The position numbers and the translations under genes were made by a program. Under the pieces are notes generated by a model. That model made no database searches. It was not told where the DNA came from and was given only the letters and a program-made list of their open reading frames with translations. From a virus, in IMG/VR virus record IMGVR_UViG_3300009147_000025, positions 1 to 24,446 of that record: a stretch of DNA of 24,446 bases; one strand, 5' to 3'. Below, piece after piece: positions 10,522 through 11,730 of the stretch; position 1 is the stretch's first letter, and every line of letters begins with the position of its first letter.

Positions 10522-11730
10522 GTGAGCCGCCTTGGCCGGCGCCAGCCAGCGCCGGTTATCCTGCGGCGCGCCCCCGCCCAGCAGGTCTCGGCGATCGCCG
10601 AGACCGGGACGACGACGGCAGGATTCGCGGGGGTTGGCACCGCGGCCAAGGTCGCAGTGGGTCGCGGCGTCAACCCCGCGGGCCCATCGGCTACTGGCCG
10701 GGCAGTCAAAGTCGCGGCCGTATCAGGTATTTGCTCGGGCGGCGCCACCGCCGTAGCTGGTCTAAAAAAGGTCGCTGTCGGCCAAGGGGTTGGCGCGGGC
10801 GCTGCCACTGGGGCGGCGACTGAAACCGCGACAGTCACCGCAGTTCGACCCCCTGTCATCCTGGTGGTGTCCCAGCCCCGACACCCGGCGTGGCAGGTCA
10901 CTCAAGGCGCCCAATTCGTCACCTCGGGGCCGATCGAACTGGCCGCGAACGCTGAGGCCGGCATTTCAACGGCCGGGCTTGCCGGGACGGCCACGCCACG
11001 CAAGGTGGCCGTGTCCGGCGGCACCTGCAGCGGCGCAGCGTCGGCCGCTGGCGCTGCCAAGAAGATCGCAGTCTCCCGCGGTAGTGCCGCAGCGGCAGCC
11101 GCGGGGGCGACCACGGAAAGCAAGGTTGCAGCCGAGCGAGGCGCGGCAACGGCGGGGATCGTCGGCATCCATTCCGGGACGCAGGTACGAGCCCAATACG
11201 GCATCTGCACTGCGGGGCTGTCCGGGGTCTCGGCCGAGCGCAAGACGGTGTCGCGTGGCGGCTCCACCACGGCTGGCGCGGTCAGTTACGGAACGGCCAA
11301 GAAAGTCGCCCCGGCTCGGGGGACCGTCGCGGCCGGCTTTACCGGCTCCTACTCCGCCACGACGATCCGCGCGGTCACGGGCATCTGTTCCGGGGCTTTC
11401 GTTGCCACGGGTACACACCGCAAGATTGTGATCGCGACCGGCGTGACCGCGGCAGGGGTGAGCGGCCAGGCAACGCCACGTAAGAAGGCTACCGGCTTGG
11501 GAACTGTCGCCGGTGGCGCGGCCGCCAGCGGCCTGCAGGCCAGGCGCAGCGCGGTATCGGGGGTGTCTGCCGCTGCCCTCGCCGCAGTGGGTAGTGCGAG
11601 CAAGAAGGCCAGCCAGCGAGGCACGACCTGTGCGGCGCTGAGCGGCGATGGCTCCCTGCAGCCCCAGTTCTCGCGAGGCTCCATGACCCCAGTCGAGAGA
11701 ACAACATCCACCATGCAGGGGGTGATGTGA
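10522..11730 (+). CDS. Ala/Gly-rich protein of sixteen 20-residue repeats (putative fibre)
   Basis: This 402-residue protein is almost entirely repeats. Four copies occupy residues 29-108 and twelve occupy 147-386, every copy exactly 20 residues. The consensus is roughly G-x-x-x-A-G-x-x-G-x-x-x-x-x-K-V-A-x-x-R. Each block is preceded by a Pro-rich PVIL segment (PAPVIL at 9-14, RPPVIL at 109-114). Cys recurs in copies 3, 6, 9, 12 and 16. The sequence is basic, with Lys mostly at position 15 of the repeat. Constant length and spaced Gly suggest a beta-solenoid or fibrous stalk rather than a globular enzyme. The GTG start directly follows a TAA in the same frame. The family was not recognised and no function is assigned. 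Confidence 0.7.
   Translation: MSRLGRRQPAPVILRRAPAQQVSAIAETGTTTAGFAGVGTAAKVAVGRGVNPAGPSATGRAVKVAAVSGICSGGATAVAGLKKVAVGQGVGAGAATGAATETATVTAVRPPVILVVSQPRHPAWQVTQGAQFVTSGPIELAANAEAGISTAGLAGTATPRKVAVSGGTCSGAASAAGAAKKIAVSRGSAAAAAAGATTESKVAAERGAATAGIVGIHSGTQVRAQYGICTAGLSGVSAERKTVSRGGSTTAGAVSYGTAKKVAPARGTVAAGFTGSYSATTIRAVTGICSGAFVATGTHRKIVIATGVTAAGVSGQATPRKKATGLGTVAGGAAASGLQARRSAVSGVSAAALAAVGSASKKASQRGTTCAALSGDGSLQPQFSRGSMTPVERTTSTMQGVM
10606..10845 (+). repeat. four 60-nt coding repeats, first block
   Basis: Four direct repeats of exactly 60 nt encode residues 29-108 of the repeat protein. They are conserved at the amino-acid pattern level, with Gly opening each unit, and diverged at the DNA level. 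That indicates an old expansion under structural constraint. Confidence 0.75.
10960..11679 (+). repeat. twelve 60-nt coding repeats, second block
   Basis: Twelve consecutive 60-nt units encode residues 147-386, in perfect 20-residue register with no indels. Cys-bearing units (GTCSG, GICTAG, GICSG) fall at every third unit for three turns. The units differ in sequence, so this is not a recent slippage product. Confidence 0.8.

Follow-up and report, generated by a model that had tools for sequence, protein, structure and literature searches.

Introduction

Accessory proteins on the surface of phage heads include T4 Hoc, T5 pb10, N4 gp17 and phi29 gp8.5, several of which are elongated, and several of the known head fibres and decorations are modular proteins with Ig-like domains for which contact with the host or with other surfaces has been proposed (PMC7602432). 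Among actinobacteriophages, Rosebush gp17 and Patience gp15 and gp29 are capsid accessory proteins. Rosebush gp17 projects a long way out from the capsid, which it touches at few points, and weak host contacts have been proposed for it (PMC7150772).

The window analysed here spans the full 24,446 bases of an IMG/VR virus record, from an uncultured tailed phage of actinobacteria. One of its genes encodes a protein for which, as for T4 Hoc, T5 pb10, N4 gp17 and phi29 gp8.5, we propose a role as an accessory head-surface protein. While known head fibres are made of Ig domains or of an alpha-helical coiled coil, this protein is made of 20-residue repeats; no head protein described as a run of such repeats was found in the review cited above (PMC7602432), and known head decoration and fibre proteins gave no sequence match. 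Rosebush gp17 and Patience gp15 and gp29 are also head accessory proteins of actinobacterial phages, compared here by description alone, but they are not described as 20-residue repeat proteins in the part of the source used (PMC7150772). Neither a description of this repeat family nor virion proteomics or microscopy for any of the related repeat proteins reported below turned up in our literature searches.

Genomic context and coding evidence

The repeat gene is located in the head block, downstream of terminase, portal, protease and capsid genes, and its position between capsid and connector genes agrees with an earlier note on this DNA. The features of the region are as follows.

4862-6127: capsid gene (MCP)
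6205-6618 and 6636-7055: tandem paralogues right after the capsid gene
7785-8441: gene matching phrog_240 'head protein'
8935-9801: right-handed beta-helix gene (PF13229, E 3e-7)
9811-10521, plus strand: beta-sandwich-type domain gene, PHROG 3329 (function unknown)
10522-11730, plus strand: repeat-protein gene, 402 aa, GTG start
11727-12560, plus strand: gene for the head-tail adaptor (connector), conserved on the 3' side of the repeat gene
14169-14645 and 14672-14980: two ORFs that lie between the genes for major tail protein and tape measure, in a position like that of tail assembly chaperones
14987-15601: ORF of the HNH type that overlaps the beginning of the tape-measure gene
15567-19151: tape-measure gene

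The tandem paralogues at 6205-6618 and 6636-7055 are probably decoration proteins; about 40 of the loci fetched in this study have homologues of them after the capsid gene. The beta-helix protein at 8935-9801 sits in the head block, and its fold is one usually met in tailspikes.

The open reading frame of 402 residues reported earlier is present, with a GTG start. Its first base follows the TAA of 9811-10521, the gene upstream, without a gap, and at the other end its stop shares bases with the start of the connector gene. GC content is 0.67, 0.69 and 0.76 at the three codon positions, the last of which resembles that of the adjoining genes. A spurious reading frame, or a protein that is not part of the virion, could be suspected from the lack of a homologue of known function and from the other ORFs that overlap 10522-11730 on both strands, but the coupling of start and stop to the neighbouring genes, the coding-like GC3 of 0.76, and the conserved leader, tail and repeat register that all fall in one frame make this explanation highly improbable.

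Repeat architecture

The protein falls into two blocks of repeats framed by a leader and a tail.

10522-10605, plus strand: leader MSRLGRRQPAPVILRRAPAQQVSAIAET, akin to the leader MARLGRGxPAxAY found in other repeat proteins
10606-10845, plus strand: repeat block 1, four 20-residue units (residues 29-108)
10846-10959, plus strand: spacer of 38 residues (109-146), starting with RPPVILVV
10960-11679, plus strand: repeat block 2, twelve 20-residue units (residues 147-386)
11674-11727, plus strand: C-terminal tail RGSMTPVERTTSTMQGVM, whose first two residues are the last two of unit 16 and which is common to repeat proteins of related phages

Units start at residues 29, 49, 69 and 89 in block 1 and at residues 147 to 367 in block 2, in line with the leader followed by four and then twelve units that had been read from the sequence before. 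They cover 320 of the 402 residues, and 82 are non-repeat. The register changes from one block to the other across the spacer, which by eye looks similar to the leader. All 16 units are 20 residues long and neither block contains an indel, so the claim that no unit gains or loses a residue is borne out, as is the proposed consensus: Gly occupies unit position 1 in 16/16 units, Ala position 5 in 11/16, Gly position 6 in 10/16, Lys position 15 in 11/16 and Val or Ile position 16 in 10/16. Basic residues also recur at positions 14 and 20. Gly at every third residue, as in collagen-like proteins, is not seen; it is invariant only at every twentieth. A super-period of three units, suggested by Cys in each third unit, was not significant (p 0.12).

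When lags of 20, 40 and 60 were combined, the periodicity score reached 9.2, and none of 5000 composition-preserving shuffles exceeded 4.3. Pairwise identity between units averages 29% (maximum 60%), so that the repeats described as 'exact' are exact in length and not in sequence. The units also differ in DNA, as had been noted: where units have the same residue, they also have the same codon 35% of the time, compared to the 38% that codon usage predicts, and TRF found no 60-bp array in the gene. Codon sharing at the expected level and the missing array leave no trace of recent duplication or slippage and indicate that the repeats are old. Taken together with the shuffle score and the low identity, these results establish the repeats as real, ancient and fixed in length, and they agree with the earlier view that the period is under selection.

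Searches with the window protein

No Pfam, PHROGs or NCBIfam family matched the protein, which the earlier note had also failed to recognise; no PHROG reached E <= 1, and the searches revealed no adhesion-type domain (Ig or lectin). A tblastn search of 50,697 phage records found no match, although its silence on the repeats weighs little because tblastn filters low-complexity sequence. An IMG/VR pattern scan with the protein returned nothing. The profile search with a repeat as query, proposed earlier as a check, turned up no relative, whether HMMs were built from single units or from unit triplets. As profile matches failed, we claim no membership in a named family.

Repeat proteins in the same slot of related phages

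Because the window protein itself matches nothing in the libraries, related contigs were fetched through neighbouring genes, 80 loci by the capsid protein and 80 by an alignment of connectors (a scan with a single connector sequence yielded nothing), and the gene directly 5' of the connector was inspected. Many independent contigs, all fetched without a repeat query, carry a strongly periodic protein in this slot. An A/V/S/T-rich repeat protein directly precedes the connector in L004 and L008 as well, two contigs with a capsid protein 65% identical to that of the window. In one prophage group (L013, L015, L017 and L021) the repeat gene precedes the terminase gene instead. The window protein shares the features of the slot repeat proteins, being located directly 5' of the connector with a period of 20, the leader and the tail. 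The position of the gene, which the earlier note had called unexpected, is thus a recurrent one. No relative of the repeat proteins was detectable in the isolated phage genomes that were searched.

A census allowing lags of 6-40 comprised 35 periodic proteins in 19 clusters, with a best period of 20 in ten and of 18-24 in all of them. Since its members were selected by a periodicity threshold, a few from contigs without a located connector, the census shows how narrow the period is and not what share of phages carries the gene.

The length of slot proteins varies between 254 and 1775 residues. The longest (L005:13790-19114) combines several sandwich-type domains with a long run of 21-residue repeats. 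The repeats themselves could not be aligned between clusters: profiles gave hhalign probabilities below 10%, compared to 97-99% for pairs within clusters, and cross-alignment of repeat types by PSSM register also failed. Since both attempts failed, homology of the repeats, and with it their common descent, is not claimed. PHROG 14065 (function unknown) has 20-residue repeats of the VGQAxETDTAQPV type and is matched by L047 and L055 at a similar gene location, and in L178 (Streptomyces sp. SAJ15) an ETxxAQPL repeat occurs together with the MARLGRG leader. The window protein, in contrast, does not match PHROG 14065, nor could its repeat profile be aligned with that of L055.

The window protein has 40 K+R and 9 D+E residues, a net charge of about +31. 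Such a charge, with Lys at unit position 15 and the recurrent basic residues at positions 14 and 20, could reflect a function in binding nucleic acid inside the head or teichoic acid on the wall polymer, and the slot protein of L092 is still more basic. Across clusters, however, the net charge of slot proteins varies from -37 to +116; as it is not conserved, positive charge is unlikely to be the shared function, and we regard a basic binding protein as quite unlikely. The highest value belongs to the leader-bearing repeat protein L092:8951-10942 (+116 in 664 residues).

Shared ends and partner domains

What is common to different clusters are the ends, either a MARLGRGxPA leader or a RGSMTPxxRxxxxM tail, and the window protein has both. 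This sharing further weakens the view of the protein as an unexpected one. With the window left out of the leader profile, its start scored 16.5 bits, compared to 3.1 for the next best start site in the window. Other loci reached the 16.5 score only in leader-bearing proteins and in three hits within contigs fetched by the leader pattern. Leader-pattern hits in L172, L175 and L177, from other phyla, are unrelated proteins and were set aside. The leader is common to L013, L015, L016, L017, L021, L087, L089, L092 and L178. A tail profile from eight relatives, again without the window, gave 32.9 bits for the window tail; across 10,890 ORFs, no unrelated tail scored above 14.8 bits. The tail is common to L005, L093, L096, L103, L105, L121 and L153, and the profile independently matched a protein of 319 residues with a 22-residue period in L100 (RGSMGPVSRTTSVM), two genes before the connector.

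The slot proteins of L103, L093 and L121 carry LamG domains, and that of L122 matches phrog_2804 'virion structural protein'. The protein of L178 consists of the leader, a few repeats, a lectin-like stretch and further repeats, a layout that by eye resembles block 1, spacer and block 2 of the window protein. The product of 9811-10521, pooled with relatives in L006 and L082, matched the N-terminal domains of slot proteins (hhalign 99.3%, E 7e-21); single proteins gave probabilities of 14 to 97%, and controls with the connector, beta-helix, 7785 and repeat proteins gave 0.1-0.2%. This match indicates that sandwich and repeats are fused in relatives and encoded by two adjacent genes in the window.

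In L006:8631-10109 and L082:7466-9106 the same sandwich domain is fused to a Dit-like tail protein, and in L089:6931-8019 (minus strand; E 2e-42 to PHROG 5577) the leader and short repeats are fused to a Dit/minor tail protein. These fusions point to leader and sandwich as virion modules exchanged between genes of the head and of the tail, and show that they are not confined to the head. The repeat protein may accordingly belong not to a head fibre but to a neck or tail appendage (a whisker, a neck passage structure or a Dit-associated spacer), which would keep the logic of a stalk with attachment at the connector or tail. The coupling of the repeat gene to the head-tail connector gene fits such an appendage, as do the Dit fusions of both modules. 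Against it speak the location of the repeat gene in the head block, behind the capsid gene and the putative decoration genes, its place before the terminase in one prophage group and the match of the neighbouring gene at 7785-8441 to a head PHROG. We consider a neck or tail appendage somewhat unlikely, and because it overlaps our preferred explanation, a virion surface appendage of head or neck, the likelihoods that we attach to the explanations sum to more than one.

Structure predictions

AlphaFold2 predicted an all-beta structure with about three short strands per 21-residue repeat for L017 (five sequences, pLDDT 46.7) and a similar all-beta pattern for four window units (four self-aligned rows, pLDDT 45.0). 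At a pLDDT of 45-47 both models are too weak to claim a fold or a beta-solenoid. The beta-solenoid or fibrous stalk suggested earlier thus stays a proposal, supported in so far as the models are rich in beta structure. Helical coiled-coil repeats of the phi29 gp8.5 type are not indicated, as the low-confidence model of four units contains no helix.

Beta-solenoids such as CsgA, the left-handed helix of GlmU and a beta-helical antifreeze protein have about 20 residues per coil, as in the low-confidence L017 model. Triple beta-spiral fibres stand beside them as a fold for comparison. A Foldseek search of this weak model against the PDB gave no significant match to solved beta-solenoids or other structures (best E 0.14), and solenoids are among the weak hits. 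A BFVD hit (A0A516M8C1, E 4e-5) was rejected for its TM of only 0.25.

The low pLDDT of the window units could also mean that the protein is a disordered bristle, a flexible spacer with a periodic sequence and no defined fold. A composition of 68% A/G/T/S/V and repeats that cannot be aligned between clusters would suit such a bristle. Against it stand units of exactly 20 residues without an indel in either block, the invariant Gly 1 and recurrent Lys-Val/Ile, the narrow period kept across unrelated repeat sequences, and the periodic beta strands of both models, so that a bristle seems unlikely to us.

A putative stalk on the virion surface

The repeat protein probably forms the stalk of a modular appendage on the virion surface, at the head or neck. 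A spacer or stalk on the virus particle is most likely since related phages keep a protein of nearly equal period in the slot, often fused to lectin-like domains. Virion location, stalk function and beta fold are inferred; given such a location, the protein would work like a phage head or neck appendage. Its repeats would fold as a regular beta coil in which every 20 residues supply about three short strands, and the length of the stalk would depend on how many units there are. One conserved end would anchor the protein to the head or neck, while the leader, sandwich or lectin-like domains, where present, would be held off the particle, where they may touch sugars or polymers of the host or the surroundings. 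A constrained period with a drifting sequence would be expected of an exposed scaffold.

More tentatively, these proteins could represent a class of appendage that is selected only for a period near 20 and for its two ends. The stalk sequence would then be freely replaced, even by unrelated repeats, with the number of units setting the reach, and actinobacterial phages would possess an adjustable spacer with swapped lectin-like tips.

Slot, leader, tail and period define a group of repeat proteins in actinobacterial phages and prophages, one not described by Pfam, NCBIfam or most PHROGs. If these proteins are virion stalks, they would be spacers for which length and period matter and sequence counts for little, and Streptomyces prophages would allow a direct test of the rule by which repeat number determines appendage length.
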